Assembly: GCF_000186865.1 (NCBI RefSeq)
Contig: NW_008705561.1
Span: forward strand, 2,938,490 to 3,002,489
DNA from: Aureococcus anophagefferens
Taxonomy: Eukaryota; Sar; Pelagophyceae; Pelagomonadales; Pelagomonadaceae
Length of the DNA stretch: 64,000 bases
Reading direction: 5' to 3'
This document shows positions 3,217 to 60,800 of this stretch, piece after piece. The stretch's first letter is position 1. Every line of letters begins with the position of its first letter. The notes beneath the pieces are model-generated. The model did no database searches. It was not told the DNA's origin and saw only the letters and a list, made by a program, of their open reading frames with translations. The translations under genes and the position numbers were made by a program.

Positions 3217-5136
3217 ATGGCGGACGACTGGCCCCTGGCGATCGCCCACGGTCGCGTGGCCTACTGCGCGTTCCGCGCCACGTCGGTGACCGTCGCCGCG
3301 GTCGACGGGGACGAGGTTCGCGTCGTCGCGCTCGGCGCGGTGCCCGAGGTGCCCTGCGCGTCCGTCGAGGCCTGCGACGTCGCCTGGGTCGGGCGGCGGC
3401 TCGTCGTCTGCGCGAGCGACGGCACCGTGCGGTGCTTCGACGGCGACGCCTGCAACCCGACGGCCTGCGTCCGCGTCGCGGCGTCCGCCGGGCGCCTGTC
3501 GGCCGCGCCGGGCGCGTCCGAGGCCGTCTTCCGCGCGCGGCCGGGGCTGGCGACGTTCCTGGCCTTCGACGGCGGCGGCGCGCCGCGCGTGAGCCACCAC
3601 AAGGTCGCGGCGCCGGAGCCGGCGGCCCTCGCGGCGTCGCGCGGCGGCAAAGCTTTAGGAGTCGGCTCTCGGCCGACGGTCGCCGAGTACGCGCTGGCGG
3701 ACCCGCCGCCGTCGGGCCTGCTGCGCGCCGCCGCCGGCGCCCTCCTCGGCTGGCTCGCGCCGGGCGCGCGGGCGCCCCGGGGCGACGGGAACGCGCGCGA
3801 CGGCTTCGCGGACCGGCGGCCCTACGAGGACCGCGAGGGCCCGCGTGCGAATCAAATCTTCAACCCGACTTCAATGTGCGCGTATTCGAATGATTTAACA
3901 CGAGCACTTCCGCTGTGCTTCGAGAATTCGATGAGAGCACTAGATTCATCCAAAAATCAGCCGAATCGACTTTGATTTGACCGAGCTCGAGAATTTCAAA
4001 GTTTGGTCGGGACGTCCCAGCTCACCGGTTGATTCGCACACAGGCGAGGGCGCGCGGCGCGAGGGCGAGCGCCACGGCCGCGCGGCGCGGTCGCGCGTCT
4101 TCTTCGACGACGCGGGCCGCGAGGCCCACGGCGTCGCCGTGTCGCCGCGCGGCGACCTCGCGGCCGTGAGCGACAACCTCGGCCGCGTGCTCCTCGTCGA
4201 CGTCGCGGCGGGGCGACTCGTGCGGCTCTTCAAGGGCGCGCGCCGCGCCCAGGTCGCCTGGGTCGAGGTCGACGACGGCGACGGCGCGAAAACGCCGGGC
4301 CTCTACCTCGCGATTTTAGCGCCGCAGCGGGCCCTCGCGCGCGTCTGGCGGTGCCGCTTCGGCCCGTGCGTCGCGGCGTTCCGCGTCCCGCCGGAGCTGA
4401 CGCGCCTCGTCGAGGCGCGGGGCGCGGACGGCCGCGCCGTCGCCTACGTCGCCGGCGGGCCGGCGGACCTCGTCCTCGAGCCGCTCGCCGTGGACGCGGC
4501 GCGGTGCGCGGCGGTGGCCGCCGCCGCGCGGCGCGACCTCGCGACGGCGGGCGCCGAGGCGCGCGCGAAGCGCGCGCTCGCGGCCGCGGACAAACGCGGC
4601 GACGCGTCGGACGCCGCGGCGCAGCTCGGCCGCCTCGACGGCGACGACGGCGCTTTGGCGCGCGTCGTGGACGACGCGTGCCGGTCCTGCGGCTCGCCGG
4701 CGGTCGTCGCGTCGCTCCTGGCGCACCTCGCGCGGCGCGGCGACGCCCTGGGCGCCAAGGCCGCGGCGCTCGCGGCGACGGAGCGCGTGCGCGCGTCCCT
4801 CGCGGGNNNNNNNNNNNNNNNNNNNNNNNNNNNNNNNNNNNNNNNNNNNNNNNNNNNNNNNNNNNNNNNNNNNNNNNNNNNNNNNNNNNNNNNNNNNNNN
4901 NNNNNNNNNNNNNNNNNNNNNNNNNNNNNNNNNNNNNNNNNNNNNNNNNNNNNNNNNNNNNNNNNNNNNNNNNNNNNNNNNNNNNNNNNNNNNNNNNNNN
5001 NNNNNNNNNNNNNNNNNNNNNNNNNNNNNNNNNNNNNNNNNNNNNNNNNNNNNNNNNNNNNAAGGACGACGGCGAGCCCCAGGTCCTCTTCGACTTCAAG
5101 CCCAAGGATGACGCGGCGGACGACGACGACTGGTGA
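3217..5136 (+). CDS. RAB3GAP2-like (Rab3GAP regulatory subunit N-terminal domain)
   Basis: The start at 3217 (GCCGCGATGG) is preferred to an in-frame ATG or alternative further up. The N-terminus is propeller-like (SDGTVRCFDGD). Exon 2 carries HGVAVSPRGDLAAVSDNLGR and then AQVAWVEVDDGDG, LYLAILAPQRALARVWR and GPCVAAF, which match the signature region of the Rab3GAP non-catalytic subunit family. That subunit partners the catalytic one to act on Rab18/Rab3 at membranes. An introner intron (3833-4043) is removed in phase 1. A 255-base N run (4807-5061) hides the middle, and the frame before and after it differs, so the gap length is wrong or an intron lies in it. The end, FDFKPKDDAADDDDW, arrives far earlier than in animal RAB3GAP2 (about 1400 residues), so this is a short version. 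Confidence 0.75.
3833..4043 (+). mobile_element. Introner element B1 acting as an intron of the RAB3GAP2-like gene
   Basis: The 211-nt intron is GC-AG. The 8-bp duplication GCGAGGGC lies at 3833-3840 and 4044-4051. The element (3841-4043) has inverted ends, GTGCGAATC near the left and GATTCGCAC near the right, followed by ACAG. Removing 3833-4043 joins DR|EGARREG in frame. The interior is AT-richer than the host exons and carries CATCCAAAAATCAGCCGAAT, the core shared with every other introner here. Confidence 0.93.
4807..5061. other. Assembly gap (255 N)
   Basis: A run of N inside the RAB3GAP2-like gene. The coding frame on the two sides is not compatible with a 255-base spacer, so the length is an estimate or an intron is hidden. 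Confidence 0.99.
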
Positions 5137-5222
5137 GGGCAACGTTTGAGATGGTGTAGTGCAAGATCTGTGCAACAGAGCAGTTTTGGGAGAGCCGATG
5201 TGTCGCAGCTTGCGCTGACCTC

Positions 5223-7901: not shown

Positions 7902-7945
7902 AGAGCTAGTTTAGTATGTCCCATCGCTGGTGGGAGCGGGAAGAC

Positions 7946-9244: not shown

Positions 9245-9390
9245 CGCCGACGATTTACGATGTCGAGCGTCCTCACTTACCCCGCCTCTTGAGCGCTTGC
9301 GCTGCGACCAAGTGCCCGCACGCACAGCTGTACAGTGGCGATTCTTGGCGACATCGGCGACATCCATATGTCCGTCCAGAGACGTTCCAA

Positions 9391-11176
9391 CTAACCGCTA
9401 TTACACCGCCGGAGGCTCGCCGAGTAGGCGCGGAGGAGCGCGGCGCCGAACTCGTCCGGGCTGATCTCGCCGTTGTGGTCGCTGTCCGCGCGCTCGAGGA
9501 TGTCGTCGACCGTGGCGTCGGAGATGCCCGGCCGGATGCGCTTGAGCGTGTCCCGCAGCTCCCCGGGCTGGATCGCGCCGTCGCCGTCGACGTCGAAGAA
9601 GGCGAAGGCGCAGGCCATCGACTCCCGGAAGGGGGCCTCCAAGAGGTATCGCCTTCCGTAGGCCTCCGCGAAGTCCTCCGCCGTGAGTTCGCGGCCGCGC
9701 TCGAAGAGCGCCTCGAAGGCCTCGCGCTCGCCGTCGCCGAGGAGGCCCGAAGCGCGGTCCGCGGCCTCGCGCGGCGTCGGCGCGCCGATGGCCTCGAAGG
9801 CCGCGGCGATGCCCGGCGCCTGGAGGGGCTTCGAGAAGTCGCCGCGGAGCGCGCCGCGGACGAAGCGGTCCGCGATGTGGCGACGCCGGCCCTCCCGCGA
9901 CCGGAATTCGAACTCGGCGGCGATGGGCACGTGGTCGGAGGGGTGCTGCTCGTCGGGGATGCAGCCGGCCGCGCGCGGCGCGTCGGGCACGGCGACGAGG
10001 CGCAGCGCCGCTTCGGAGTGCATGATGTAGTCCTACCGAGCACGACGGTGACGATTTTCCCCCCACCCCAAATCTCTCGAGACTCGTCACGGCCACGGGA
10101 CGCTGGTCGACGCGATCCTATTTCGCCTGAGCAACGTCGACGACGTGCTCCGCGTGGGCACGTCGACGGAGAAAAACAGGAGCGGGTGCACGGGCGCCGC
10201 CTCCAGGCGGCACGTCGCCTGCGCGACGGCGCGGATCTCCTCGAGCGACTCGGAGTTCCAGTCGCCGCCGACGATCGTCGCCTCGAGGGGGTCGACGCCT
10301 ACCGAGCACGACGGTGACGATTTTCCCCCCACCCCAAATCTCTCGAAGTTCGTCACGACCACAGGACGCCGGTCGACGCGGAAGTCGACGGCGAAAGCGC
10401 TGGAGCTCGTCCATGAGCTGGGCCACCTGGCAGAGCCGCACCGCGTGCTGCTCCCGGCTCTCCGGGTTCCTCGCCAGATGCGTCGAGATGAAGAGGCAGC
10501 GGTCGCCCGAGGGTTCGTAGCGGAGCAGACAGAGCAGCGCGCCGCGGTCGCGCGTCCGGCAGCCGTCGTCGTCGTAGTGGATGCCCCGGTGCGCCTCGAG
10601 GCTCCAGTCGTCCCTTCGCCACGCGACGCAGCAGCCGTCCGGCGAGCTCGACCGCGGCCGCTTGAAGAAGAGGCTCCCGTAGCCCTGGGCCTCGAGCGCG
10701 GGCCGCCAGAACGCGTCGTACTCGTCGACCTCGACGAGCGAGAGCAGCCCCGCGTCGAGGCGCCGGATCGTCTCCACGAGCTTGGGCCCGCGGACCTCGA
10801 ACGGAAAGTGCCGGCGGTCGATGTCCTCGACGCGGCGCACCTCGTCGTCGGTGAGGATGCCCCGGACGTAGTTCGGCCACCCGGCGTGCAGGAAGTTCCC
10901 GGCCTCGTCGCGCGCGCTGTGTTTTTTTGCAATTGCCACAGCTCTCGGGTCCTCGGAGCCCTGCAAAGCGCCGTAGAGGAACCAGGGCTCCGTGTTCGCC
11001 GCGTAGCGCTTCGCAAGGACATTGTATTGCGCTACTCTGAACGTCGAAAGGAGGCGCCGCGCCGGGACCGGCGGAGGCCACCGAGCGTGCCGCGCCAGGC
11101 AGCCCCTGTAGACCATCGTGTACGCAAGAAGCAAACGTTGGCTTCGCGCGCCAAAGCTGCCCCTCGCAAAGCGCAT
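9391..11176 (-). CDS. CCR4/nocturnin-like EEP nuclease with C-terminal EF-hands
   Basis: Exons about 11176-10380, 10298-10114 and 10032-9391 give about 540 residues. The endonuclease/exonuclease/phosphatase fold is read from FRVAQYNVLAKRYA, LLSLVEVDEYDAFW, LFISTHLARNP, IVGGDWNSES and the final DYIMHS...SDHVPIAAEFEF, which holds the catalytic Asp-His. After the nuclease come helices and two EF-hands, DVDGDGAIQPGE and DSDHNGEISPDE. CCR4/nocturnin enzymes shorten poly(A) tails or act on nucleotide cofactors; calcium control through the EF-hands is inference. The N-terminus is basic and could be a targeting peptide. Intron 10113-10033 is GC-AG (RI|DYIMHS). Intron 1 fits either 10379-10299 with one surplus C near 10390, or a donor at 10392/10389. 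The start lies only 42 bp from the divergent start at 11219. Confidence 0.75.
10033..10113 (-). repeat. 81-nt intron unit, copy 2 (in the CCR4/nocturnin-like gene)
   Basis: This GC-AG intron is about 93% identical to 10299-10379 (six mismatches in 81, the acceptor-side 48 nt identical). It contains the inverted pair CGTGACGA and TCGTCACCG around a G-rich core. It lacks a flanking target duplication but starts with the same GCGTCGACC as copy 1. Confidence 0.85.
10299..10379 (-). repeat. 81-nt intron unit, copy 1, flanked by a 9-bp direct repeat
   Basis: Same unit as 10033-10113. The perfect 9-mer GCGTCGACC (minus strand) lies at the donor (10371-10379) and again immediately after the acceptor TAG (10290-10298), as expected of an inserted element whose target copy became the donor. 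Confidence 0.8.
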
Positions 11177-11179
11177 GAT

Positions 11180-11187
11180 GGCAGCCC
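11180..11187 (-). promoter_or_regulatory. Start-proximal GGGCTGCC motif in a 42-bp bidirectional spacer
   Basis: GGGCTGCC on the minus strand, 3 nt before the ATG at 11176 and 31 nt before the plus-strand ATG at 11219. The spacer also holds TATATACC at 11200-11207. Confidence 0.35.
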
Positions 11188-11218
11188 AACGATTGTTGTA
11201 TATACCCTGAAAAAAACG

Positions 11219-14200
11219 ATGTACAAAGCCGTGGTGTTCGTGCTTGTTCTCGCCGCGCTCGTCGCGTTCGTCGCCTTCGAGTCGCACGTGGCGGCGATCT
11301 CGAAACCACGCGCCGCCGGCGACGCCGGCCCCTGGCTCGCGGCGCGCGAGGCGTCGGACGCCGTCGCGGCGTCCGAGGGCGGCGACGCGCCGCCGGCGGC
11401 GGTCGCCGCGTCGTCCGCGGCGCTCGACGACGACGAGGACGACCGGCCGCCCCTCGTCGCCGGCGCGCCGCCGCCCGAGGGCCCGCCGTGCGACGCGGCG
11501 CGCGTCCGCTACTGGGCCGGCGGCCTCCCGGGCGACGCGGCGCTCGTCGCGTCGGGCCGCGTGCCGCCGGCGACGGCGCCCGAAGCACCGCGCTACCTCA
11601 CCTTCGTGCCGGACCTCGGCGGCTGGAACAACGTGCGCCTCGGGCTCGAGAACGCGCTGGTCATCGCGCGGTCGTCGGGCCGGATTCTGGTCCTGCCGCC
11701 GCCCCAGACCTACTACCTCCTCGACGCGAGCGAGCGCCTGGGCCTCGAGGACCTGCTGCCCGCGCTCGTCGGCAGCCCGGACCGCGCGGCCGTCATCGCG
11801 GCCGCGGCCTTCGTCGAGGACGCGGTGCCGCGGCTGCGGCGCGAGGGCCGCTACGCGCGGCCCGCGGCGCGCGGCGGCGGTGCGCCCGGCCCGCCGCCGG
11901 CGAACGCGACGGCCTTTGTGCGCGGCTGCCACCCGACGCGCAAGGCGCCGGACAGCTGCTTCGGCTTCTACGATTGGCTCGAGGACGCGTTCGGCGACGG
12001 GGCACGAAAAGGGCGCGAAATTCCCAACTTCAAAGGCTCCTATCTCGGCCGGTTCCCACTCGTTTCGGCTGATTTTTCGACGAGCGATCATCCCTCGGAG
12101 AGTTCTCGAAGCGTGGATGTTTTCCTTTGAAACGCGCGCGCGCGGAACGCTCACGTTGAAGCGACGTTGAATCACCCGCCCAGGTTCGGGAACGGCTTCG
12201 CGCCGAACGTCGGCCGCGAGTGCCTCGCCTTCGGCGATCCGCCGGAGGCGCGCCTCGCCGCGGCCTGCGGGCCGCGGACGGCCGTCGACGGCACCCCGCG
12301 GGCGCGCATCGACGGCGACGCGCTCTTCGGCGGCCCGGACGCCGTGTTGCACGTCCGGTCGTCGGGCGCCGCGACGCACCACGCGGCGGCCGTGCGCGCG
12401 AACCGCGCGGCGGCGCTGCGCGGCGAGGCCGTCAAGCCCATCGAGCAGAACGCCCTGGGCCGCCTCCTCGCGCCGCCCTGCGCCTACGTCGTCCACGGCG
12501 ACGCGGCGACGGCGAACTTCTACAAGCGTCTCGTCCGCGACTTGGTCCGGCCCTCGGAGCGCGCGACGTGCGCGGCGCTGCGCGTCGTCCGCTGGCTGCG
12601 GGGCGTGCGAAAGCGCGGGGGCACGTTCTCGTCGGTCCACGTGCGGTCGACGGACTTCCAGTACGCCGAGGGCCGCGCGGACTGGGCCGTCGTGTCCCGC
12701 GCGCTGGCGCCGCGCGAGCCCGTCTTCGTGGCCACGGACGACGACACCGGCGCCGTCGCCGCGCCGCTGGAGCGCGCGGGCCACGCCGTCTTCACGCTGG
12801 CGCCGCTCGTGCGGGCGGCCCTCGGCGGGACGCGGCCGAAGCGCGCGACGCACTGGCCGGACAAGAAGGTCCTCGACGCGCTCAAAGCCGTCAAGCGCGC
12901 GGAGGTCGGCGTCGTCGACGCGCTGATCGCGGCCGAGGGGCGCACCTTCACGGGGGCCTGGTTCTCGACGTTCACGGGCTTCATCCACCGCGTCCGGGGC
13001 TACCGGGGCTACGCGGACAACAGCTCCTTCTTTAGCGCCGCGGGCCGCTGGGCCGCGTTCCAGGGCTTTGAGGCGCCGCGGACGCCGCTCTACATGCGCG
13101 AGTGGCCCGCGGCCTGGCGGAATATCGACTCCGACGGCGACGCGGCGCCCTATCCCGGCGAGCGCGTCTTCGACGAAATCGACCCGGCGGAGGGCTACCC
13201 GACGGACGCCGTGCCGGAGGGGTTGTTGGCGCCGAAGCTCGAGGCCTGCGTTTTACCACAATCCATGCGCTACTGGCGTGCGCCCGGGTCGGGCGCCGCG
13301 GATGCGCGCCTGCTCCGGGACCCGGAGGCCGTGCCGCGCCTCGCCGGCGACCGCTTCTTGACGTTCGTGCCGGACCTCGGCGGCTGGAACAACGTGCGCC
13401 TCTCCTTCGAGAACGTGCTCGTGCTGGCGCGGTCCACGGGGCGCACGCTCGTGCTGCCGCCGCCCCAGACCTACTACCTGCTGACGAACTGCAAGCGGAA
13501 CTGCGTCTTCGGCTTCGACGACTTCCTCCCGGCGCTCCTCGACGTCGACGATTTGGTGATCACCGCGGCGGCCTTCTTCAAAGACGCGCTCCCGGCGCTC
13601 CACGCCGCGGGGCGGCTCCGAAGGCCCGCGCGGCGCGACGACGGCGGGTCGCCCGTCGCCTGGCCGCCCGAGGACGCGCGGGTCGTCGACTACGCCGACG
13701 GCTGCACGCCGACGCATCTGGCGCCCGACTCGTGCTTCCCGGCCTACTTCTGGCTCGAGGACGCCTTCGGCCTGCCGGACCACATCCCGGACGTGGGCCA
13801 GCAGTGCGTCGTCTTCGGGGAGGCAAGGGCGCGGCGCCTCCGCGGCGACGGCTTCGTCGACGAAAGGCTCGACGACTTCTGCGCCGTCCGCACGTCCATC
13901 GCGCCCGGCGTCGAGCGGAGCCGCGTCGACGGCGACGCCCTCTGGGGCGACGCCGAGTCCGCCGTGCTCCACGTGCGGAGCTCCGGCGTCGCGACGCACG
14001 AGCACGACAAGTGGCGCGACAAGAAGGTCGGCCAGGGGGGACCGCAATTGGAGCCCGCGCGCATGGGAAGATTGCTGGCCCCCTGGTACGCCTACGTCGT
14101 CCACGCGGACCCGGCCGTGGCCAACTTCTACAAGCGCCTCGTGCGGGACGTCGTGCGCCTCGACGAGCCCCGCGTGACCTGCGCGGCCGCGGGCGTCGTC

Positions 14201-14875
14201 GCGTGGCTGAGGTCGGCCTACGGCGGCGCGTTCGCGTCCGCGCACGCGCGGCGCAACGAGTTCCAGTTCAAGGAGACGAACGCCCAGCTCGGGGCCGTGG
14301 GTTTGCGGGACGTGCTCCTGCGCGTCGCGCGGCCCGGCCAGGCGCTTTTTTTGGCGACGGACGAGAAGAACGCGTCGTTCTTCGACCCCGTGCGCGCGGC
14401 CGGGCGGCCCGTGGTGCTCCTGAGCGAGCTCCTGGCCTACGGGTCGAGCCGGCAAGACGGCGGCCGGCGGCCCGACGGCGCGCCCTGGCCGCCGCGGGAC
14501 CTCGCGGAGCGGCTGCTGGAGCTGAACGGCAACGAGCTCGGCTTCGTCGACGTGCTCGTCGCCTCGCAGGGCGCGACGTTCACGGGCTCCTGGTTCTCGA
14601 CCTTCACGTCCTTCATCCACCGCCTCCGGGGCTACGGCGGCTTCCGGGACGCCGACTCCTACTTCACGGCGCCGGACCGGTGGGCCGCGTTCCAGGGCTT
14701 CGAGAGGATCCGCTCGCCGCTCTACATGCGCGAGTGGCCGATGGCCTGGCGCGGCATCGACGGCGACGAGGAGGCGGCGCCCCTCCCCGGGGAGCGCGTC
14801 TTCGAGCCCGGCGTCGCCAAGGACGGCTACCCGACGGACCACCTCCCGCCGGCCGCGCTCTTGGCCGCCACTTGA
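11219..14875 (+). CDS. Tandem-domain O-fucosyltransferase-like glycosyltransferase, type II membrane protein
   Basis: Exons 11219-11988 and 12184-14875 encode 1153 residues. MYKAVVFVLVLAALVAFVAF is an N-terminal signal anchor. Two homologous catalytic units follow. Unit 1 (about 120-610) has LTFVPDLGGWNNVRLGLENA, a Pro-rich LVLPPPQTYYLL, FSSVHVRSTDFQY and FTGAWFSTFTGFIHR. Unit 2 (about 630-1150) repeats each landmark. GGWNN, the R-x-D/R-N-E basic motif and the S-T-F-T near the end fit the GDP-fucose O-fucosyltransferase superfamily. The acceptor is unknown; a Golgi lumenal location is inferred. Intron 11989-12183 is an introner. Both halves look intact, so the gene probably arose by internal duplication after which only unit 1 gained the introner. 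Confidence 0.75.
11989..12183 (+). mobile_element. Introner element A1, intron of the tandem glycosyltransferase gene
   Basis: A 195-nt GT-AG intron. The target duplication is decayed (GTTCGGCG at 11989-11996, GTTCGGGA at 12184-12191, six of eight). Removal joins LEDA|FGNGFAPN, matching the homologous LEDAFG of the second unit. The left end has lost the usual GGCAGGACAAGAG sequence, and the divergence suggests the oldest copy in the window. Sense orientation relative to the other A copies. Confidence 0.9.
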
Positions 14876-19642: not shown

Positions 19643-22011
19643 ATGGCGCTCGAGGCCGTCTGCGGCGAGCTCTGCTGCCCGATGACCGGCGAGCTCTTCG
19701 TCGAGCCCGTCATCTTCCTCGACGACGGCGCGACCTACGAGAAGAGCGCCGTCGAGCAGTGGCTCGCGTCGCTGCCGTGCCTCGGCCTCGGCGGCGCGGA
19801 CGTCGCCGCGCGGCTCGTCGCGGTCAAATGCGTGCGCCGCGCCGTCGAGCGCGCCGTCGCCCGCGGCGCGTCGCTGCCGCCGGGCGCCCGCGGCGCCTGG
19901 TGCGTCGCCGCCGTCGCCGCGGCCGCGCGGACCTTCGCGCGCGGCGCCGAGCCCGCGGAGCTCGACCGCGTCGTCGCCATCGTCCGGAACGTCGGCGGCG
20001 ACGAGCGCCTCTCCTACGGCACGGCCTGCGACTTGTTCGGCGACGCCCTGCCGACGCACCGGCGCGTGCGCCTCGCGGCGGCGCTCGCGCTCCAGGACCC
20101 GCGGTCGACGCGAGCGGCGCTCGCGCGCGGCGTCCGCCGGTTCCAGGCGGCCGCGCGCGCGGCGGCGTCGCGCCGGCGCCGCCCGCGCACGCCGCGGCGG
20201 ACGAGGCGCGCGGCGCCGCCGGCGTTCCCCGCGCGGCTCGCGGCCGAGGCGGCGCCGGGGACGGCGGACGGGACGCCGCCGCGGCCCGCGGAGACGCCCG
20301 TCCGCGCGCCGGAGCCCGTAGACGAGACGCCGCGGCGCGCGCGGCGGTCCGTGTCCTGGGCCGACAGCGACACGTGCTCGTCGCCCTGCTCGTCGCCGGA
20401 GCTCACGCCCCACCGGCCGCGGTCCGTGTCCTGGGCCGACTCGCCCCCGGCCCACTCGCCGGAGACGACGCCCGTCCGCGACCGGAGGCCCGCGAAGCCC
20501 GCGCCGCGCGACGAGCCCGCGGCGCGCGAGGAGCCCGCGCCGCGCGACGAGCCGGCGCACGACGAGCCGCCGGAAGAGCCGTCGCCGCCGCGCGAGGAGC
20601 CGTCGCCGCCGCGCGAGGAGCCGTCGCCGCCGCGCGACGAGCCGTCGCCGCCGCGCGACGAGCCGTCGCCGCCGCGCGAGGAGCCGCCGCCGCCGCGCGA
20701 CGAGCCGCGGCCGCCTCCGCCGGCGCCGCGCGCGGTCCCGCCGGCGCGGCGCCCGCCGTCGGAGGCGCCGCCGGCGCGGCGCCCGCCGCCCGAGGCGCCG
20801 CCGGCGCGCGAAGACCGCGAGCGCGCGGCCCCGCGGCGCCGGCCGCGGCCGAGGGCCGCGGCGCCGGCCGCGGCGCTCGACGTCAGCATCGACGTGCCCG
20901 CCGAGGAAGCCTACGCGGCCGCGGCGGCGCCCGCGGCCGCGGCGCCGTCGCCCCGGGGCGCGCCGTCGCCGCGGGGCGCCGCGTCGCCGCGGACGAGCCT
21001 CCGCGACGCCGTGCGCCTCGCGCGGCGCCGCGCGGCGGACGGTGAGCGCGCCGCGGCGACGGTGCAGCGCGCGTGGCGCCGCGGCCGCGTCCCCGAGGCC
21101 TTCGAGACGCTCTCGGAGCGGACGGAGGCCGCGTCCGACGCGGAGCGGACCGTCGCCGACGCGCCGGCGCCGCGGCCCGCGTCGTCGCCGCGCGTGCCGT
21201 CGCCGGCCGTCGCGGCGGCCGAGGCGAAGCGCGCCGCGGGCCGCGCGCGCCGCGCGTCGCGGACGGCGCGGCCCGCGCAGCCGCCGCCGCCGCCGCCGAA
21301 GCGCAAGGCGCGGACGGCGGCGCCGCAGAGCGTGTGGATCCCGCCGGAGACGCCGCTCCCGGCCAAGTCCGCGGCGGCGCCGGCCCCGGAGGCGGCGAAG
21401 GCGCGCCCGGTCGGCCCGATCGCCGCGAGCCCGGCCATGGACGAGTCCATCGACCTCGCGGGNNNNNNNNNNNNNNNNNNNNNNNNNNNNNNNNNNNNNN
21501 NNNNNNNNNNNNCTCCGCGTCGCCGCGGAACGCCGCCGCCCGCGCCGACGTGTCGCCCCCCGGGACGGCGCCGCCGCGCGCGCGGGGCCCGGCGCGCCGC
21601 GCGCGGTCCGCGTCGCCCGCGGGCCCCCCGGCGCCAGAGGCGGAGAACGCGAGGCCCCCTCGCGCGGAGACCGCGAAGCCCGCGGAGCCCCCGGCGCCCG
21701 CGGCGACGACGCCGGCGCGCAACGCGGGCGCCAAGCTCGCCGGCGGCGAGCGGCTGCCCATGGCCGCGCCGCGGCGGCCGCTCCGCTGCGTCACCGAGCC
21801 CGGCGAGCCCGCGGCGGCCGCGGCGCCGCGCGGCGCGCGGCGCAAGATCAGCCCGCGGTGCATCTCCGACTTCGACGAGTCGCGCACGCCGCCGCCGCCG
21901 CCGCCGAAGCCCGGGAGCCCGTCGACGCGCCTCTGCGACCTGCCCGCGCTCTCGATGCCCCACCAGGTCGAGTCGACGCCCTTCCTGGACCGCCTCGCCC
22001 ACGCGTCTTAA
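19643..22011 (+). CDS. U-box protein with long disordered region and IQ motif
   Basis: The start at 19643 (CGCCATGG) gives MALEAVCGELCCPMTGELF and VIFLDDGATYEKSAVEQWL, a U-box fold (P-M-T-x-E-L-F...P-V...G-x-T-Y-E...I/V-x-x-W-L) typical of E3 ubiquitin ligases. A helical region follows, then two copies of RSVSWADS, a heptad EEPSPPR/DEPSPPR repeat, and AATVQRAWRRGRV, an IQ-type calmodulin-binding site. A 50-base N run (21463-21512) interrupts the disordered part; the frame before and after differs by one, so the gap length is not exact. The C-terminus, RLCDLPALSMPHQVESTPFL, is read after the gap. Its stop interlocks with that of the convergent gene (TTAA at 22008-22011). Confidence 0.7.
20573..20710 (+). 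repeat. 21-bp coding tandem repeat (EEPSPPR/DEPSPPR)
   Basis: Six near-identical 21-bp units, GAGGAGCCGTCGCCGCCGCG plus C with A/C variants at codon 2, begin at 20573, 20594, 20615, 20636, 20657 and 20678, with a degenerate seventh at 20699. It codes for a Ser-Pro-rich heptad and is likely variable in length between strains. Confidence 0.9.
21463..21512. other. Assembly gap (50 N)
   Basis: A run of N in the disordered part of the U-box gene; the phase change across it shows that its length is only nominal. Confidence 0.99.
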
Positions 22012-23100: not shown

Positions 23101-24551
23101 ATGGTGACGACGCGGTCGAAGAACGGCGTCGCCGGCGGCGCGAGCCCCATCTCGCCGAACTCGAGCCCGCTGCAGATCGCGGCGTCGAAGCGGTCCTACC
23201 CGCCGGTGCCCAAGACCTGCGTCGTCACGGGCGGCACGGGCTTCGTCGGCCAGCGCCTCGTGGAGATGCTCGTCGAGCGCGGCGCGGCGAAGGTCATCTC
23301 GCTGGACATCGTGCCGGCCCCGAAGGACGCGTGGCGCCACCCGAACATCGAGTGGCGCGTCTGCGACATCACGGATGAGGCCAAGGTCGCCGCCGCGCTC
23401 GAGGGCGCCGACTGCGTCTGGCACAACGCCGCCGCCGTCGGGCCCTTCCACCCGAAGCCGCTCTACACGCGCGTGACAGGGCAGGACAAGAGAGCGAAAT
23501 TCCCAACTTCAAAGGCTCCTTTCTAGGCCGTTTTCCACTCGTTTCGGCTGATTTTTGGACGAGCGATCATCTCTCGGAACGGTCTCGAAGCGTGGATGTG
23601 TTTTCCGTAACGCGCGCGCGCGGAACACTCACGTTGAAGCGACGTTGAATCACCCTTGTCCTGCCCAGGCGCGTGAACTACGAGGGCACGCTCAACGTGC
23701 TCCGCGCGTGCAAGAAGCACGGCGTGCCCAAGCTCGTCTTCTCGTCGTCGCCGTCGACGCGCTTCACGGGCGCCGACGTCGACGGGCTGCGCGAGGACGA
23801 GATGCCGTCCCTGCCCCTGCCCAGCTACCTCCAGGAGTACGCGGGCACGAAGGCCGCCGCGGAGCTCGAGGTCTCGAAGGCGTGCTGCGACGACCTGCTG
23901 ACGGTGTCCGTGGCGCCGCACCAGGTCTACGGCCCCCGCGACAACCTCTTCCTGCCGAATTTGCTGGAGAACGCGGGCAACGGCCGCCTCCGCGTCTTCG
24001 GCCCGGGCTACAACCGCATCTGCTTCACGCACGTCGACAACTACTGCCACGGCCTCATCATCGCCGAGCGCGCGCTCGTGCCCAAGTCGCCGGCGCTGGG
24101 CAACTTCTACATCTGCACGGACGGCACGACGCACCCCGGCGGCGAGCAGTACCTCCTCTTCTGGAAGGAGCTCGACCGCGCGGTCGTCGGCATGGGCTTC
24201 TCGTCGCTCTGGGCCAAGTTCCACTACCCGACCTGGTTCCTCACGCCCATCGCCGCCGTCTGCGAGGTCATCGGCTGGATCTTGGGCACGACGCTCAAGC
24301 TCAACCTCTTCAACGTCCGCGTGCTGGTCATGCACCGCTGGTTCGACATCGCGAACGCGGAGCGCGACCTCAAGTTCAAGCCCATCATCGCCTACGAGGA
24401 GGGCTGGACGGAGACCATCGCCTGGTTCCGGGAGCACTGGCTCCCGACCTACGCCAAGTCCGCGTCCCTCTTCGGCATCGCGAAGCAGTCCCAGGCGAAG
24501 ATCGACATCCAGGAGGCGTCCCGCCAGGCGGACCTGAAGAAGACGAAGTGA
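23101..24551 (+). CDS. 3-beta-hydroxysteroid dehydrogenase / sterol-4-alpha-carboxylate 3-dehydrogenase-like
   Basis: Exons 23101-23468 and 23669-24551 encode 416 residues. CVVTGGTGFVGQRLVEML is the NAD(P)-binding Rossmann motif; WHNAAAVGPFH fits the extended SDR family; EYAGTKAAAELE supplies the catalytic Tyr-x-x-x-Lys. VYGPRDNLFLPNLLENAGNG and FTHVDNYCHGLIIAERAL are typical of the 3-beta-HSD/NSDHL/ERG26 group, which oxidises and decarboxylates C4-methyl sterols at the ER. A hydrophobic segment near TWFLTPIAAVCEVIGWILG may anchor it to the membrane. Intron 23469-23668 is an introner. Confidence 0.85.
23469..23668 (+). mobile_element. Introner element A2, intron of the sterol dehydrogenase gene
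   Basis: A 200-nt GC-AG intron. A perfect duplication GCGCGTGA lies at 23469-23476 and 23669-23676. Terminal inverted repeats GGGCAGGACAAG and CTTGTCCTGCCC are intact. Exact removal joins LYTR|VNYEG; only a cut at the GC gives both an AG acceptor and the right frame. Sense orientation. Confidence 0.96.
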
Positions 24552-39824: not shown

Positions 39825-41180
39825 TCAGAGCCGCGCGAGGCCCGGCGCGGCGTGCTTCCGGGTGTCCGGTACGCAGCGGTAGGCGACGGTCGTGTTCGAG
39901 AGGATCTTGTGGGGATCCTCCCACGCGTAGGCCACCGTCGCGTTCGTGCCGTTGGGCCCCGCGACGGCGAAGGACAGCGCCCAGTCCGCGGCGTCGAAGT
40001 AGTCCTTCGACTGCGACGGCACCGCGGAGTTGCCCTTGTCGAAGCGGAAGAGGACGTAGCGGCCGTTGAGGCGCACGTCGCGCACGGTCACCGTCGCGCT
40101 GAGCTCCAGCGCCGCGACGTCGCCGACGTCCGTGTCCGGCTCGTAGTCCTTGTCCAGCGCGAGGGACACGGGCAGCGACGGGCCCGCGGCGTTGCCCGAG
40201 ATCGCCACGCCGAAGTCGTAGGCGACGTCGAGGCAGGGGTAGGCCTCGCCGCGCTTGTCGTCGGCTTTGGAGCAGTTGCCCCGCAGGTAGAGGGTGTCCA
40301 CGAGCGTGTCGAAGCGGCGGTAGTAGCCGAGGTTCGCGGACCCGTCGGGCGCCTTGCCCGAGCCTGGGCAGGACAAGAGAGATTAAACGTCGCTTCAACG
40401 TGAGTGTTCCGCGCGCGCGCGTCACGAGAAAAAACATCCACGCTTCGAGACCGTTCCGAGAGATGATCGCTCGTCCAAAAATCAGCCGAAACGAGTGGAA
40501 AACGGCCGAGAAAGGAGCCTTTGAAGTTGGGAATTTCGCTCTCTTGTCCTGCCCTTGCCCGAGCCGTGCGCGAGCACGTCGTCGTCGAAGACCTCCGACG
40601 CGTCGGCCAGGGGGTACTGGGAATAGATACCGAAAACGGGCTGGACGACGTCGTAGGTCGCGTTCGCGAGGCCGTAGGCGTCGTGCTCGCCGCCCGCGCG
40701 CATCGGGAACCACAGCACGGGCGCGCCGGCGGCGAGGCGCCGCTTGAGCCAGAGGAGGTAGGACCGCCACTGGGGGTAGGTAGGACCATCATACACCTCG
40801 TATTGAAACCTTAACTTGTCGAGCGCGCCCGCGACGTTCGTGTGCAGGATCTCGTAGCCGAGTTTGGGGCTCCCGTGGCCGCCGCCGTCGGCCGCGGCCC
40901 GCCGCGCGACGCCCTGGGACACGTAGACGCCGTAGGAGAGCGCGATGGCCTGGATCGCCGACGCGCCGCCGAAGACGCCCTCGGCGTCGACCCACTGGCG
41001 CCGCGGCGACACGGGCGCGACGCGCGCGTGGGCGTAGCCCGCGGGCGGCGTGCAGGTGCCCGGGGCGGCGCAGGCGCCGTTGCGGTCGGGCCGCCGCCGC
41101 GACGGGTCGTCCGGCGGCGGCCGCGCGTCCTCGGCGAGCGCGCAGGCGCAAAGGACCCCCCACGCGAGGCGCGAAGCCAT
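39825..41180 (-). CDS. Secreted protein, possibly C39-peptidase-like, unknown function
   Basis: Exons 41180-40565 and 40363-39825 encode 384 residues. MASRLAWGVLCACALAEDAR is a signal peptide. The first half has VFGGASAIQAIALSYGVYVS, NVAGALDKLRFQYE and LLWLKRRLAAGAPVLWFPMR followed by GGEHDAYGLA. This order (a small-residue motif before a helix, then a His in G-x-H-D) recalls peptidase C39-like proteins, but the Cys expected before GGAS is absent. The second half is beta-rich with several N-glycosylation sequons. Confidence in the family is low. The intron 40564-40364 is an introner. Confidence 0.6.
40364..40564 (-). mobile_element. Introner element A3, intron of the secreted-protein gene
   Basis: A 201-nt GC-AG intron on the minus strand. 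The duplication GCTCGGGC lies at 40557-40564 and 40356-40363. Terminal repeats GGGCAGGACAAGAG and CTCTTGTCCTGCCC are both intact. Exact removal restores LAHG|SGKAPDG (phase 1). Sense orientation. Confidence 0.96.
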
Positions 41181-48608: not shown

Positions 48609-50434
48609 ATGTTTTCGAAGCGCGCGTTCAACCAGCGGCGGAAGAAGGCCAAGGAGGCGGCGAAGCCCAAGGTGCGCAAGAAGAAGAACGTGCCGACGAC
48701 GGAGATCTACGTGAACGGCGTCGTCATCACCTACAAGAAGAAGTGCGACTTCTGCGAGAAGAAGCGCGCCGTCTTCCACTGCCCGTCGTGCGACAACGAC
48801 GGCGACGGCGACGGCGACTTCCTCTGCGACTCGTGCGACCTCGAGGTGCACCGCCACGTCAAGCGGCGGGGCCACATCCGGACGCAGCTGCCGGACGTGA
48901 CGCCCAAGGAGGCGATCCACAAGATCCTGGGCTGCTTCCGCTACCTCAGCGCGCGGCGCGCGCTCATCGCGCGGTGCCGGGCCGAGTTCCAGCGGTACTA
49001 CGACCCGCCGGCGAAGGCCTACTTCTACGCGCGGCCGCGCTTCGGGCTGACGACCTGGACGAAGCCCCTGTGCCTCAAGGACGCGGAGCTCTGCCCCTAC
49101 CCGTCCTTCGACGACTACGTCTTCCGGATCCAGGGCGGCGCGCGCGCGAAGGCGGCGCGGAACGCGCTCGTGACGCGCATCACGGAGACCTACGAGAAGA
49201 TCTTCTCGCGGGAGTACACGCGGTTTTATTATCATTTCAACGGCCGGTCGAAGCTCGTGCCGCGCGTGCGCTGGGAGAAGCCCCACTTCCTCTTCTGGCG
49301 GGACCTCAAGCCCTACAAGAACGACGACGTCGCCGCGCTCATGATCCAGTGCCAGTGGTTCGCCTGGAAGGCGCGGCGCTTCATCCAGGACGCCATCCGC
49401 AAGCAGTACGCCGCGAAGACGGACCCGCTCACGGGGCGCCTCATGTACACGAACTTGGCGAGCCACAAGCGCACGCTGAAGAAGCCGCCGCTGTTGGGCA
49501 AGGAGGAGTACGACCCCGACGACATGTCGCTCTGGGGCATCTACCGGCTGGGCGTCTGGTTCCGGCGGTTGGGGTACAAGTGGATCGTGCCCGAGCTCCG
49601 CAAGTTCGACGTCGACGGGAAGCTGCTGCTGGCCTTCGAGTGGCAGGATTATGTCGATTTGGGCTTCGGCATGGCGCACCAGATCAAGCGATTGTTGCTG
49701 GACATCGAGAAGCGGGCGTTTTTTCGGACGCACCGCGACCTGCCCGTGACGCTCGTGCGGCGGGACCGGCTCCGCTACCGGGCAGGACAAGAGTGATTCA
49801 ACGTCGCTTCAACGTGAGTGTTCCGCGCGCGCGCGTTTCGGAAAAAGCATTCATGCTTCGAGAACGCTCCGAGAGATGATCGCTCGTCCAAAAATTAGCC
49901 GAAACGAGTGGAAAATGACCGAGATAGGAGCCTTTGAAGTTGGGAATTTCGCACCCTTGTCCTGCCAGGCTCCGCTACCACCACAAGATCGAGAAGGCGA
50001 CGATCTTGATCCAGCGCGCCTACCGGCTGCGCTACGAGGCGCTCCAGCGCCGGCGCGAGGCCGAGCTCGCGCGCCTCGCGCGCGAGCGCGAGAAGGCGGA
50101 GCGGCTCCGCATCGAGGGCGGCATGTGGTGGTCGAAGAAGATCGCCGCGATCCCCGTGCCGGACCACGGCAAGCTCTACGGCAACGCGACCATCGACTCC
50201 GTCAAGGGCTGGGGGTCCTGGGTCGGCACGACCTGGGTCCCCGCGCCCGACGACACGCGGCCCGCGGAGCAGCGCTACGAGTTCCGCGACGCGACGCGCC
50301 ACGTCCTCGCCGCGCGCGGCCTCCACTTCCGCAACGACGACATGGTCATGGCCCGCCGCGCCCAGCTCCTCAAGGACCTCCGCGACAACGGCATCGACGG
50401 CGCGGGGCCCAACAAGGACCCCGCGACGGGCTAA
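48609..50434 (+). CDS. B-box zinc finger / IQ / SAM-like multidomain protein
   Basis: Exons 48609-49768 and 49969-50434 encode 541 residues. The basic N-terminus is followed by CDFCEKKRAVFHCPSCDN and DFLCDSCDLEVHRHVKRRGH, a B-box type zinc-binding pattern. FYARPRFGLTTWTKP looks like a WW-type strand. VAALMIQCQWFAWKARRFIQ and KATILIQRAYRLRYEALQRR are IQ motifs for calmodulin. IVPELRKFDVDGKLLLAFEW to IKRLLLDIEKR resembles a SAM domain. The combination is common in stramenopile scaffold or cilium-associated proteins, but the role is unknown. Intron 49769-49968 is an antisense introner. Confidence 0.75.
49769..49968 (+). mobile_element. Introner element A4, inserted antisense to its host gene
   Basis: A 200-nt GC-AG intron. 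The duplication GCTCCGCT lies at 49769-49776 and 49969-49976 (the identity runs 11 bases). Compared with A1, A2, A3 and A5 the body is reversed relative to the host, yet the other terminal repeat supplies CTGCCAG as the acceptor. Removal gives RRDR|LRYHHKIE in frame. Confidence 0.96.
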
Positions 50435-50483: not shown

Positions 50484-50526
50484 CAATGGCATGGACCACC
50501 ATTGAGTAGCCTCCTCCGCGGCGGCC

Positions 50527-50924: not shown

Positions 50925-50955
<31 letters not shown>

Positions 50956-52122: not shown

Positions 52123-52128
52123 ATTTTT

Positions 52129-52662: not shown

Positions 52663-52772
52663 CGTGCCCGTGCTCGGGCTGCACGAGGTCGAACGTGCTG
52701 CCGTGCTTCCCTGCGAAGCGGGCGATGCAAAAAGCGTAGAGCCCGAAGCCTGCTCTCCTCTGCGCGCGAGCC

Positions 52773-53639: not shown

Positions 53640-53666
53640 GGTGTCGTTATTTGAGTCCTTTGCGGC

Positions 53667-54539: not shown

Positions 54540-54840
54540 AAATCTCGACGACGCTATAAGTCCAGCCCGGTCGCTGCGCGCTGAGCGAGGACCGCCTCGT
54601 CCACTTTCGCGCCGTGGTCTTTCAGCGAGCCGATTTTAACCACTTCATGAAACGAAGACGCCTGACACCTCCTTGAGCGGGCTGAGGCTCGACTCAGCCT
54701 CGAGGACTTCGAGGCTGACTGTAGCCGACCTCGTAGTCCTGGAATCTACAAACACCAACACTGAATCACCAACACGCCGTCCCCATGCGAGGCGAACAGC
54801 GGGGAGTTTATATCGGAGTGGAACGGGGGACCGGGGAGAT
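54540..54840. other. Gene-free spacer between the ankyrin and Furry-like genes
   Basis: Lower-GC DNA. It holds an imperfect hairpin (GAGGCT-CGACTC-AGCCTC near 54690) and CA-rich DNA around 54745-54775. Likely the promoter of the ankyrin gene and the 3' end of the Furry-like gene. No coding frame supported. Confidence 0.5.
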
Positions 54841-57800
54841 TCAGGAGCTCGACCGCTTGTTGATGGGCGGCGGCGGCATCTTGGGCTGGAAGCCGGGCAT
54901 GGGCGGCGGCGGCTTCGCGGCCTTGTCGGGCATGGGCGGCGGCGGCTTGGCCTTGTCGGGCGGCGGCGGCTTGGCCTTGTCGGGCATGGGCGGCGGCGGC
55001 TTTTGCGGCGGCTTCTCGGCGAGCGGCGGCGGCGGCTTCGGCGGCGAGCCGGCCTTGGCCGGCGGCGGCGCGGGCTTCCGGGGCGGCGGCGGCGGCGGCT
55101 TCTTCTTCGACTCGAAGCAGCCCTCGGGCGGCGGCGCGTCCGCGTCGAGGTCGAGGACCTGGGCAGGACAAGGGTGATTCAACGTCGCTTCAACGTGAGT
55201 GTTCCGCGCGCGCGCGTTCCGGAAAAAGCATCCACGCTTCGAGACCGTTCCGAGAGATGATCGCTCGTCCAAAGATCAGCCGAAACGAGTGGAAAATGGC
55301 CGAGATATGAGCCTTTGAAGTTGGGAATTTCGCTCTCTTGTCCTGCGAGCTCGAGCACCGCGATGTTGAGGCCCTCGGCCGCGCAGCGGAGGCGGACCGC
55401 GCCGAGGGGCACGCCGCGCTTGAGGAGGTTGACGAAGGGCACGTAGTCGAGGTAGCGGTCGTCGTCGCGGAGCCGCGCGGCGGCCGCCGGCGCGGCGGCG
55501 CGCGGCGGCGGCGGCGCGGGCTTCTCCGGCGAGCCCCCCTTGGGCGGCGGCGGCCCCGGCGGCCCCTTGGCCGGCGGCGGCGGCGGCGCGGCCTGCTTCA
55601 GGGCCGGCGGCGGCGGCGCCTTGGCCGTGCCGCTCTTCGGAACGAACGTCGTCGCGCGGTCCGCGCCGGCCGCCGCCGCTTGGCCGATGGCGCCGAGCCG
55701 CGCGGCGACGACGTCGTCGGGCTCCCCCACGAGCGGCGGCGGCTGGTCCTCGCCGAGCAGCGCCGCGACGCCCGACGACCGCAGCGCCGCGCCGAGCAGC
55801 GCCGCGGCGACGGCCCGCTCGTCGGACGACGACCCGCCGCCCCGGGCCTCGAAGACGCGCTCGGACGCGGCCTGGGCCAGCCGCGGCAGCGCCGGCGCGT
55901 CGCCGGCGTCGCCGAGCACCGCGGCGCCGAGCCGGAAGGCCGCGCGCCGCACGTCGCCGTCGCCGCAGGACGCGGCGCGCGCGAGCGTCGCGTCCAACCG
56001 CAGCGCGGCCTCGGGATCCTCGCCGGCGACGCCGCGGAGCCAGGCCCCCGCGCCGCCTAAAAACGCGGCGACGTCCGGCGGCGCCGCGGCGACGAGGTGG
56101 TCCCGGAGCGCCGCCGCCGCGGGCGTTTGACCTAACGCGTCCGCCGAGTCGGCGAGCTCCGCGGCCAACTCCGCGGCCTCGAGCGCGCCGCTCCGCGCGA
56201 CGAGCCAGGGCCCCAGGGCGCCGAGCACCGTCGCGAGGGCGCGCGCGGCCTCGCCCGCCGGCGCGAGCCGCGCCACGGCGAGCGTCGGCGCCACGGCCGC
56301 GCGCGCGTCGCGCGCCGCGCGCGCGTCGTCGCTCAGCAGGCCCCTCGCCAACCGCGCGACCGAGTCGACGACCGCGTGCTCGCGGCCCGGCGCGTCGTCC
56401 TCGCGCCAGAAGGCCCGCAGGCTCGCCGCCGCCGCCGGTCCGTCGTCGCCCGCCGCGATCGCCGCCGCGTACATGGCGTGGAGCGCCACCCCAAAACGGT
56501 AGACCTTGCAGCGGACGTCGCCGGCCGCGGACGTCCGCAGCAGCGCGTCCGACGCCCAGAAGGCCGCGGCGGCCAAATGGGCGTCGCCGGCGTCGACGGC
56601 GGCGACGGCCTGGGCGCCGACGGCCCGCAGGAGGGCGCAGCAGAGCGCCGCGGCCTGGTACTCCTTCGTCGACCGCGCCTCCGAGCCGGTGGAAAACGCG
56701 CGCGCGTGCGCGTCGCCCAGCGCCACCAACAGATCCGGGAGCGGCCGCGGCGCGTCCGGCGCGCCTAAAGCCAGGTAGACGACCAGGGCCTTGAGCCGCG
56801 TCGGGAAGTCGCGGGACCGCGCGGCCCAGCTGAGCGCGGTATCGGCCCACCGCGCGGCGCAGCCGCCGTCGACGCCGCCGACGACGGCCGCGAGCGCGCG
56901 CGCGAGCGCCGCCGGGTGCGCCGCGCCCGCCGCCGCCGCCGTCTCCAGCGAGTCGCCCTCCCGGAAGGACGCGGCCGCGAGGTCGCCGAATTTTTGCGGC
57001 GGCTGCCCCAGGTCCGCGATGGGCCCGCTCCAGTCGAGCGCGAGGTGGTCCACGTCGACGCCGCAGCGCAGCAGCGCCAGCAGCGCGTTCACGGGCGCCG
57101 GGTCCGCGCCCAGCGCTAAAAAGCGCGGCTGCAGGTTGAGGACGAGCGTGTGGAGCAGGTTCGGCACGGCGCCCGCCAGCCGAAAGGCCTCGGCGACCGA
57201 GTGCGCGCCGCCGCCGAAGCGCGTCGGCGACGGGAAGTGGAGGACGCAGAAGTGGAGCACGGCGTGGAGGTGGGGAATGAGCGGCGCCGGGTCCGCGCCC
57301 CCGAGCGCGCAGAGCAGCGCGACGGCGCCCTCGGACGCGCCGAGCGGCGCCTCCCCGTCGCCGCCGCGCGCGAGCTCCGCGTCGACGGCCGCCTGCGTGC
57401 ACATCAAATCTTCAACTCGACTTCAATGTGAGCATACGCGACAGTTTCGACGCAGCCTTTTCGGCTTTGCTTCGAGAACTCGACGAGAGCCATCGATTCG
57501 TCCAAAAATCAGCCGAATCGACGTCGATGTGACCGAGCGAGAGAAGTCTCAAGTTTGGTCGGGACCACCCAAACCGGCGGTTGCATTCGGCACGGACGGC
57601 CGCGTCGTGCGCCGGGAACGACAGCGCCTCCACCAGGATCGCCACGACGTCGTCCGGCGACGCGCCGTAGGTCGCCAGCGCCGCCGTCTGGCAGGCCGCG
57701 AGCGCCTGTTTGCGCCCCGCGACCGCGTGCTCCGCGGCCGCGGCCGCGAGGTAGCGGACGACGGGAGGCACGTTCCGCGCGTCGAGGCAGAGGCGGCTCC

Positions 57801-60800
57801 AGATGGCCTCGCCCGCGGAGATGCCCGGGTGCCTCGCGGCGAAGGCGACGAGCCACTCGATGATGCGGTCGCCGCGGCCACTCGTCGCGCCGTCGCCGTC
57901 GACGAGCGTCACGCGCGCGCAGAGCGCGCCTAAAATCTTCGCCGTCACGTTCTCGCCGCCCCACTCGGGCCGGTTCCCGTGCTGGCCGTCGAAGATGCAC
58001 TCGAGGCAGTCGAAGATGCGGTCGCCGCGGCCCTGGAGCACGTCGAGCGCGGACGGCGCCTGTTTGTCGTCGCCGCCGCCGGACGACGCGGCGAGCACCG
58101 CGGCGACGCACTCGAGGATCTCGTCGGCCTCGGCGTCGCGCCGCGACGCGCAGTCCGCGCTGAAGTGGACCCAGTAGTGGGCCATGAGCTCCACGAAGTC
58201 GGCCGTGAGCTCGCCGCCGCCGTCGCCGGCGAGGTGGAGCGTCGCGGTCCGCACGAGCAAAAACGCGCGGACGCGCACGGCGACGTCGGCGTCGCGCACG
58301 GCCTTGAGCGCCAGCACGAGCACCGCCGGCGCGCCGAGCCGCTCCGGCCGGCCCGCGACGAAGCGGTCGTCGCCGAAGGCCGCCGCGACGGCGACGGCCG
58401 GCGGCGGCGAGCTCGGCTTCCTCACGTCGAGCTTCGCCAGGTCCGCATCCCGGCCGTAGGCCCGCACGGCCGCGTAGTAGGCCGTCGAGTCGCGCGTCGT
58501 GCCCGCCGTCGGCGCGTCCGGGAGCGCCGCCGCGGGCAGCAGCTGGTCCGCGACCGCGTGGAAGAAGGGCACCGCGCTCTCGCGCGGCGCGGACACGGCC
58601 CGCCGCAGGAACGCGGGCGACAGCACCTCCGTGTGGTGGGCCAGCAGCCAGGGCAGGCACCGCGCCGCCGCGCCGCCCAAGGCCTCCGCCGTCAGGAACC
58701 AGGACAGGTCCACGGGCGGCGCGGCCTCGTCCAGCAGCGCCGCGACCGTCGCGTGCGACAAGAACGCGCCCATGGCCAGGAGCTTCGCGGACGTGCGCCC
58801 CGCGAGCACGAGCGCCGCGCCGTCGGCGTCGGGCACGCCCTTGGCCGTCGTGCAGGGCGTGCCGTCGTGGCTCCGCGCGAGCGGCGGCTTCGCGGGCGGC
58901 ACGCCCCATTTCTCCGCCAGCGAGCCGCCCGGCCGCGGCCAGACGTGGGTCTGGCGGAGCCAGGCGTAGAGCCGCAACAACTCCGGCGCGGCCCAGCGGG
59001 GCAACGCGCCGAAACTCTTCCCGACCTGGCTCACGCGCTTCACCAGACCGCCGCCCGCGGCGGTCTCCTCGGCCGACGCCGCCGTGTGCGCCTCGAAGAG
59101 CGCGCCTGCGTGGACATCACATCTTCAACCCGACTTCAATGTTCGTGTATGCGACCGTTGTGACGCAGGCTCTTCGGCTATGCTTCGAGAACTCGACGAG
59201 AGCAATCGATTCGTCCAAAAATCAGCCGAGTCGACTTCGATTTCACCGAGATAGAGAGTTCTGAAGTTTGGTGGGGACCCCCCAAACCGGCGGTCGATTT
59301 CCACGCGGGACCGCGCCCGCGACGTTGTGCAGCAGGTGGAGCCGGTCCAGCAGGGCCGCCGACGACGTCGCGCCCTCGTCGCAGAACGCCGCCGACGCGA
59401 CGGCGCCCGCGAGGAGGCCCAGGAGGTTCCGGTCGCGCGCGGCCTCGCGGAATCTGGGACTTTCCGACGCCGCGCGGAGCAGGCTGTACGCGCAGGCCCG
59501 CTTGCGGCCCTTGGCGTCGCCGCCCGCGCCGAGCCACGTGAGCAACGACTTCGCCAGGGGCCCGCAGGCCGACGCCGACGCCGACCGGCAGCACTTGGCG
59601 AGCGCCGCGAGCGTCGGGTCCTCCTCGCCGACGCCGTCCAAGAGGCTCCACGCGTCCCGCGCGAGGAAGTCCTCGAGCTCCGGCGTCGTCTCGCCGACCT
59701 GGAGCGCCAGCAGCAGCGCCACCTGCGTGAGGAAGCGGCTCGGCTGCCGCTTGAAGGCGCTCGGCGCCCGTAGCGCGCCGTAGAGCAATCGCTGCGCGTG
59801 CGCGGCCGTCGCCGGCTGGTCCAGATCGACGAGCTCCGCCGCCAGCAGCGGCACGGCCGCCCCCCACAATGCCGCCCCCATGCGCGACACCTTGCGCAGC
59901 GTCGGCGCCGCCGTCGCCAGCGACCCCGCGGCGCCGCCCGCGTCCGCGACGAACGCGCGGATCGCGCGCTGCGCGACGTCGCCCTCTTTTTTTTCCAGCA
60001 TGGCCCGCACGGTGACGTGGGCGCCCAACGACGCCGACGCCGCCCGGCGCCGCGCGAGGTCGGTCCCGCCCTCGCCGTCGACGAGGCCCACCATCTCCAC
60101 GAGGCGCAGCTGCGCGTCGCGGATCTCGTGGACGCCGTCGAGCACGTCGAGCGCGACGTCGCGCGTCGCCGCGTCCTCGTCCGCGAGGAACGCCAGGGCC
60201 GTCGCCTCGGCCCGCGCCGTCCAGCCCAGCGCGCGCGACGGCGACGACCCCCCCGGCGCGGCCTCGAGGACCAGGTCGCTGTCGTCGGCGGCCGCGCGCC
60301 GGCTCCGGCCGTCCGCGCCGAATTTCACGGCCCGGCGCCAGACGTCTAAAAGCTCGGCGACGCACCGCAGCGCGTTCCCGCGGCTGCCGAGGCCCTTGGC
60401 GAGGCAGGAGCCGCAGTGCGAGAGCACGTCGACGACGATCGCGGGCCGCTCGCGCGGCCGCTTGAGCAGCGACCGCTGCAGCGCGACGCGGAGCGACCGC
60501 CGGAGCGCGACGGACGAGTGGTGGAGCAGCCCCGCGTTGAGGAGGGAACGTCCTAAAGTTTTCCAGGGCGCGAAGACGGCGCACCGCGCCGTCTCCTGCG
60601 CGACCTGCACGTGCAGGAGCTTCGTCTCGGTCGTTTTGCCGCCGTCGACGGCGCGCGCGTCGCAGCCTTCGCCGTCGGCGTCGTCCGGCGCCGCGTCGAG
60701 CACGGACCTGGGCGCGCCGCCGGCGTCGAAGCAGAAGGCGTCCTCCTTGTCCATGAGCTGGTCCAGCGCCTTCGAGAGCATCTCCGGCGCGGACGCGAGG

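Follow-up and report, generated by a model that had tools for sequence, protein, structure and literature searches.

Huff, Zilberman and Roy are said to have described, in 2016, the introners of Aureococcus anophagefferens and Micromonas pusilla as short non-autonomous DNA transposons; insertion reportedly duplicates the target, the element contributes one splice site and the duplicated target its partner, and excision is exact. We analyzed a 64,000-nucleotide stretch of A. anophagefferens DNA (contig NW_008705561.1, positions 2,938,490 to 3,002,489 of the forward strand; hereafter the window, numbered from its first letter) in which eight units interrupt coding frames, and we are highly confident that these units are introner elements, miniature DNA transposons of the cut-and-paste kind that are non-autonomous, fall into two related families, and have inverted terminal repeats and 8-base-pair (bp) target duplications. 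Both the mechanism and the species are already published, and the window adds no new mechanism. An initial annotation, made from the letters alone, had given the same reading, in which the target copy supplies the donor and the element the acceptor; the duplications, the inverted ends, the frame across 138 copies and homologues at three junctions support it. It had also stated that introners are known from Aureococcus, and passages in three papers (PMC9860276, PMC7789003 and PMC9481584) do refer to introners of this species. According to those passages, the A. anophagefferens introners have a characteristic length of ~210 bp (PMC9481584) and always possess direct repeats along with inverted ends of constant length (PMC7789003).

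The eight units lie precisely where the initial annotation had placed them and measure 195-211 bp in the window sequence. It had called them AT-richer, with inverted ends and with flanking duplications that are perfect in five cases and match at 6-7 of 8 positions in three, and each of these points was borne out: the GC content is 0.50-0.58 inside the units versus 0.72 for the whole window, inverted ends and flanking duplications are present on all eight, and the duplications match at 8/8 positions in five units, at 7/8 in two and at 6/8 in one. Read on the gene strand, every unit opens with G[CT] and closes with CAG; the GC or GT falls in the target copy, the CAG falls in the element, and the first eight bases of the unit recur immediately 3' of the CAG. 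After excision an open frame spans the junction in all eight cases. A scan of the window with both family profiles (expectation (E) values up to 10) returned these eight alone, with no ninth place.

The units were said to be related to one another, which holds with the amendment that they form two families. Family A (~192 bp, ends CWGGGCAGGACAAG) comprises units 2-6. Unit 2 (11989..12183, plus strand, GT...CAG) is shortened near its 3' end and has the 6/8 duplication (11989-11996 / 12184-12191); unit 3 (23469..23668, plus strand, GC...CAG) has a perfect duplication, GCGCGTGA, at 23469-23476 / 23669-23676, as do unit 4 (40364..40564, minus strand, GC...CAG; GCTCGGGC at 40557-40564 / 40356-40363) and unit 5 (49769..49968, plus strand, GC...CAG, with a reversed interior; GCTCCGCT at 49769-49776 / 49969-49976); unit 6 (55159..55358, minus strand, GT...CAG) is flanked by a 7/8 duplication at 55351-55358 / 55151-55158. 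Family B (~203 bp, ends CTGTGTGGAAATCAA) comprises units 1, 7 and 8, all GC...CAG: unit 1 (3833..4043, plus strand; 8/8 duplication GCGAGGGC at 3833-3840 / 4044-4051), unit 7 (57393..57603, minus strand; 8/8 duplication GCGGCCGT at 57596-57603 / 57385-57392) and unit 8 (59106..59316, minus strand; 7/8 duplication at 59309-59316 / 59098-59105). The two families are related in their interiors, the family A profile matching the three family B units with E values of 8.5e-11, 4e-10 and 5e-7.

Searches of the 49.05-Mb genome (86 contigs) revealed 1,807 matches (904 + 903) to the family A core pattern with ≤3 mismatches and 1,675 (832 + 843) to the family B core pattern with up to 3 mismatches; the control gave 0 in each case. 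Summing the matches gives ~3,500, a figure in which the two sets may overlap and which predicts 4.5 per 64 kb compared to the eight in the window (P 0.09), so that eight units in a stretch of this size are not unusual. Identity to the family majority sequence had a median of 95-96% in the sampled copies (91 of family A and 47 of family B). With these match counts, and with 122 of 138 copies sitting in a continuous frame, near-identical introns occupy many unrelated genes. Four exact patterns drawn from both families had no match in IMG/VR, and mirusvirus introns are described in a passage of PMC12768974 as having no match to an introner database. Introners were found clustered at three of the fetched loci (L021, L031 and L014), where coding-like gaps of 51 to 341 bases separate them; within this small sample, lengths of about 140-185 and 300-350 occur repeatedly.

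The tabulation of duplications and splice borders that the initial annotation had suggested for the whole genome was carried out on a non-random sample of copies. Outside the window, 60 loci were selected by an exact 16-base end requiring a CTG end and 34 for matching the window units best; 12 others were taken for their unusual ends, and 6 short ones were selected by a pattern combining a family A end with a different interior. Across the window and the fetched loci together, the profiles identified 163 copies, of which 17 at stretch edges were dropped, including all 7 matches in the six short stretches. At the fixed boundary, the 8-bp duplication was perfect in 117 of 146 copies versus 0 of 730 mismatched pairs, and it matched at 7/8 positions in 11 of 146 copies versus 5 of 730 mismatched pairs; the perfect duplications are thus not due to chance. 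A splice-blind codon model was trained on three sets of window exons backed by Pfam or homologues; for each of the 138 copies outside the window, it was used to pick, separately on either side, the best of the six frames. Exact excision placed both sides in the same frame in 122 copies, whereas excision off by one or two bases gave agreement in 2 and 7. Among these 122, for which the gene strand was found without recourse to splice signals, the 3' end was CAG in 120, the donor was GC in 62, GT in 57 and GA in 3, and phases 0, 1 and 2 were represented by 37, 45 and 40 copies. One splice site therefore lies in the element (CAG) and the other comes from the duplicated target, with GY (Y, pyrimidine) opening the target copy in 119 of 122. 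The mirror dinucleotide RC (R, purine) closes the target copy in 33 of 122, and GY makes up 0.208 of the flanking dinucleotides. Because the element ends are nearly symmetric, a target preference should be mirrored; the unmirrored GY that opens the target copy looks like selection on splicing rather than target preference.

The hosts of the eight units are six genes, not the five counted in the initial annotation: each of units 1-5 has a gene to itself, and a single minus-strand gene holds units 6, 7 and 8. For that gene (54844..61909), joining exons 61909-59317, 59105-57604, 57392-55359 and 55158-54844 gives 2,148 stop-free codons, the outer limits being stop-to-stop rather than the start or end of the gene. 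A second frame is also open across the junctions of units 6-8; a CCDC53 Pfam match, which lies in the exon frame upstream of unit 6 and ends about three residues into the unit when read through, favors the 2,148-codon frame. Open frames come cheaply at 72% GC, making frame alone a weak proof, and homologues were therefore used for three units. The host of unit 3 is a 3-beta-hydroxysteroid-dehydrogenase-like (3-beta-HSD-like) gene whose exon 1 matches positions 1-77 of the PF01073 profile and whose exon 2 matches positions 90-255, and all nine aligned homologues, chosen from 120 listed and including two diatoms, are continuous across the junction. The predicted protein is 88% identical over its whole length to A. 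anophagefferens record P0002; by eye, the differences cluster in a few stretches where the P0002 gene model departs. Across the unit 5 junction, all 10 aligned homologues (from 15 found) are continuous. For unit 4, whose gene matches A. anophagefferens record P0145, 16 homologues were found and 9 aligned, of which 7 are free of extra residues at the junction. Two continuous homologues, P0001 (99% identical) and P0121 (98% identical), are located on short ENA contigs and may be transcript-derived. Units 1, 2, 6, 7 and 8 rest on frame, nearby Pfam matches and kinship with other copies: exon 2 of the unit 1 gene stays in the frame of a RAB3GAP2_N match, and the frame 10052-14872 is open across the unit 2 junction and has an O-FucT match in its exon 2. 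The claim that removal of each unit restores the protein was upheld in that the junction is open for all eight and homologues are continuous at three. As judged from frame and homologues, splicing would leave the length of the message unchanged. Runs of N occupy 4807-5061 and 21463-21512 of the window, the former within the open frame downstream of unit 1.

The interiors of the elements lie both ways relative to the gene (51:28 for family A and 23:20 for family B), which argues for DNA transposition. At the gene 3' end, CAG was present in all 79 family A copies, and at the gene 5' end the corresponding triplet was CAG in 62, CGG in 14, CCG in 3 and CTG in 0. In each of the 79 copies, a single end thus bears the acceptor, and which physical end this is differs between copies; in other words, family A elements carry one acceptor each and exist in two mirror-image forms. 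Family B is mostly symmetric: the 5' end reads CTG in 38 of 43 copies and the 3' end AG in 41 of 43, so most of its copies carry an acceptor on both strands. Loci selected for a CTG end supplied 61 of the 79 family A copies, so that finding one such end in a copy partly reflects how the sample was chosen; the constant position of the acceptor at the gene 3' end and the lack of CTG on the other side are not due to that choice, and the other 18 family A copies showed CAG at the 3' end in 18/18 and CTG at the 5' end in 0/18. A literature search, which did not reach Huff et al. 2016, found no published account of this asymmetry. A tree of 92 family A copies did not separate the mirror-image forms into two clean clades; it was poorly resolved, with no starred branch, and is compatible with one origin of each form or with several. 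The tree does group acceptor-right (58) and acceptor-left (29) copies, requiring 13 and 12 changes compared to shuffled means of 27.7 and 24.9, and 0 of 500 shuffles were as low as these counts. Two introns were also folded as RNA; the inverted ends pair, but the folding energies (z -1.42 and +1.16) are unremarkable, and RNA structure is accordingly not used in support of any claim.

One fetched locus yielded a different element. At L105:4548-5049 (minus strand) is a 502-bp element with CAGGGCAGGAAAAGGGC at both ends, an 8/8 duplication, and an unrelated interior. Its ends are those of the family A terminal repeats but lack the AG acceptor, and it is too short for a transposase; a relative, without a matching duplication, is found at G000:C1:618576-619054. 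This element is possibly a non-intron sister of the introners. We tentatively suggest, as a step that may well not have occurred, that the ancestral end form (CAGGGC...GCCCTG on both sides, as in the L105 element) could not be spliced and that a change of the second base at one end, to ...GCCCAG, turned the pyrimidine-rich repeat into a 3' splice site, arising separately at each end in family A to give mirror forms that splice on opposite strands, and at both ends in family B, which would then splice either way; this one base would thus determine in which direction an element is spliced. With one clean copy of the 502-bp element, this one-base origin is offered as a speculative case. If true, the genome holds the steps by which a transposon becomes a maker of introns. 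The asymmetry of family A suggests that whether an insertion does harm or becomes a silent intron depends on one terminal-repeat base.

We propose that, on insertion, the upstream target copy would supply a GC or GT 5' splice site and that the downstream element end, which closes in CAG and in family A has a pyrimidine-rich repeat before it, would act as the 3' splice site; excising one target copy plus the element would then rebuild the old exon exactly. Copies without GY at the site, or family A copies with the wrong end downstream, are probably purged from exons. Nearly identical introns in new places across unrelated genes could also arise if the units spread as RNA, with excised introns being reverse-spliced in the way proposed for introner-like elements of fungi. 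Reverse splicing would not be expected to yield 8-bp duplications, inverted ends and interiors lying both ways, however, and the fungal introner-like families are described in a passage of PMC9860276 as lacking duplications and inverted ends; this route is strongly disfavored and, in our estimation, most improbable. We give as little credence to the view that the units are ordinary unspliced miniature transposons in genes that are broken or have accidental frames in GC-rich DNA. Chance open frames are long at 72% GC, two frames stay open across units 6-8, and splicing of the units is deduced from frame, borders and homologues rather than from RNA. Against it stand the contrast in the codon model between exact and shifted excision, the continuity of homologues at three junctions, and the occurrence of CAG exactly at the gene-strand 3' end in 120 of 122 copies.

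Several observations weigh against the introner reading that we prefer. Besides the indirect basis of the splicing just mentioned, the duplication matched at fewer than 7/8 positions at the fixed boundary in 18 of 146 copies; 16 of 138 copies had no matching frame in the codon model; and, among the 122 copies, the donor is GA in three and CAG is missing from the assumed 3' end in two. Beyond GY, the donors are almost devoid of consensus, the preference for G at the third base being weak (0.52). At the junction of unit 4, extra residues occur in two homologues, one residue in P0144 and 24 in P0136. Finally, neither an autonomous partner nor a transposase was found in the genome by end searches or with PF05699, PF18758 and PF10551, although these negatives are weak. 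The 24 residues of P0136, which derives from an ENA contig, sit exactly at the unit 4 site and may represent a short intron read through at that site in a relative.

The transposase that we infer to mobilize the elements, an enzyme not seen here, is perhaps hAT-like. The hAT transposons have CAGNG-type ends and make 8-bp target duplications. The duplications here measure 8 bp, CAGGGC starts 62 of the 79 family A non-splice ends as well as the L105 element, and family B starts with CTGTGTGG. Enzymes of the P element, Merlin, KDZ and MULE superfamilies also make 8-bp duplications, and it is a reasonable possibility, short of a probable one, that one of these, rather than a hAT enzyme, mobilizes the elements; family B, ending in CTGTGTGG, may use a different enzyme from family A. 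The hAT dimerization profile PF05699 had 0 genome matches, a result for which no control genome rang, and the family B ends do not start with CAG, both of which favor a non-hAT enzyme. Against such an enzyme, PF18758 (KDZ, without a ringing control) and PF10551 (MULE, for which the control rang) likewise gave 0 genome matches, these being, with hAT, the families searched, and the CAGGGC starts resemble hAT ends. The initial annotation had proposed looking for an autonomous partner with the same terminal repeats; none was found in three genome searches for family A ends with a different interior, which gave 6, 22 and 10 matches, 12 of the 22 being fetched as 10-kb stretches and one other being L026. 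Nine of these 12 ran on into family A sequence, which is rearranged in some cases (L101-L103); one (L108) had an end followed by other sequence and then by family A sequence, one (L104) had an end alone, and one was the 502-bp L105 element. Four of the 10 matches were the two ends of that element and of its C1:618576-619054 relative, and the other six, in short stretches, were family A copies.

How new introns arise has long been asked, and a plain partial answer comes from this genome, with its two small transposon families and ~3,500 core matches; most sampled copies can be read as exact introns. The near absence of a donor signal beyond GY would be an unusually loose splicing rule. Compared with the introners described in passages of Gozashti et al. 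2022 (PMC9860276), whose search matched opposite ends to allow for insertion in opposite orientation, the elements here are alike in having duplications, inverted ends, an acceptor in the element and a donor from the duplication (the type of their Fig. 2B), and GC donors, which account for up to half in some of those families, are likewise common here. The Aureococcus sp. example in that paper (Fig. 2F) differs in carrying both splice sites and adding 12 bases, whereas the elements of the window add none. A passage in Farhat et al. 2021 (PMC7789003) describes the splice motifs of A. anophagefferens as canonical, yet GC donors are about as common as GT in our sample (62 vs 57). The Amoebophrya introners treated in the same passages resemble those reported here in their inverted repeats, direct repeats at exon borders and transposon-like spread, but their direct repeats are 3-5 nt and many of their motifs are non-canonical, in contrast to the 8-bp duplications and GY...AG borders of the A. 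anophagefferens elements.

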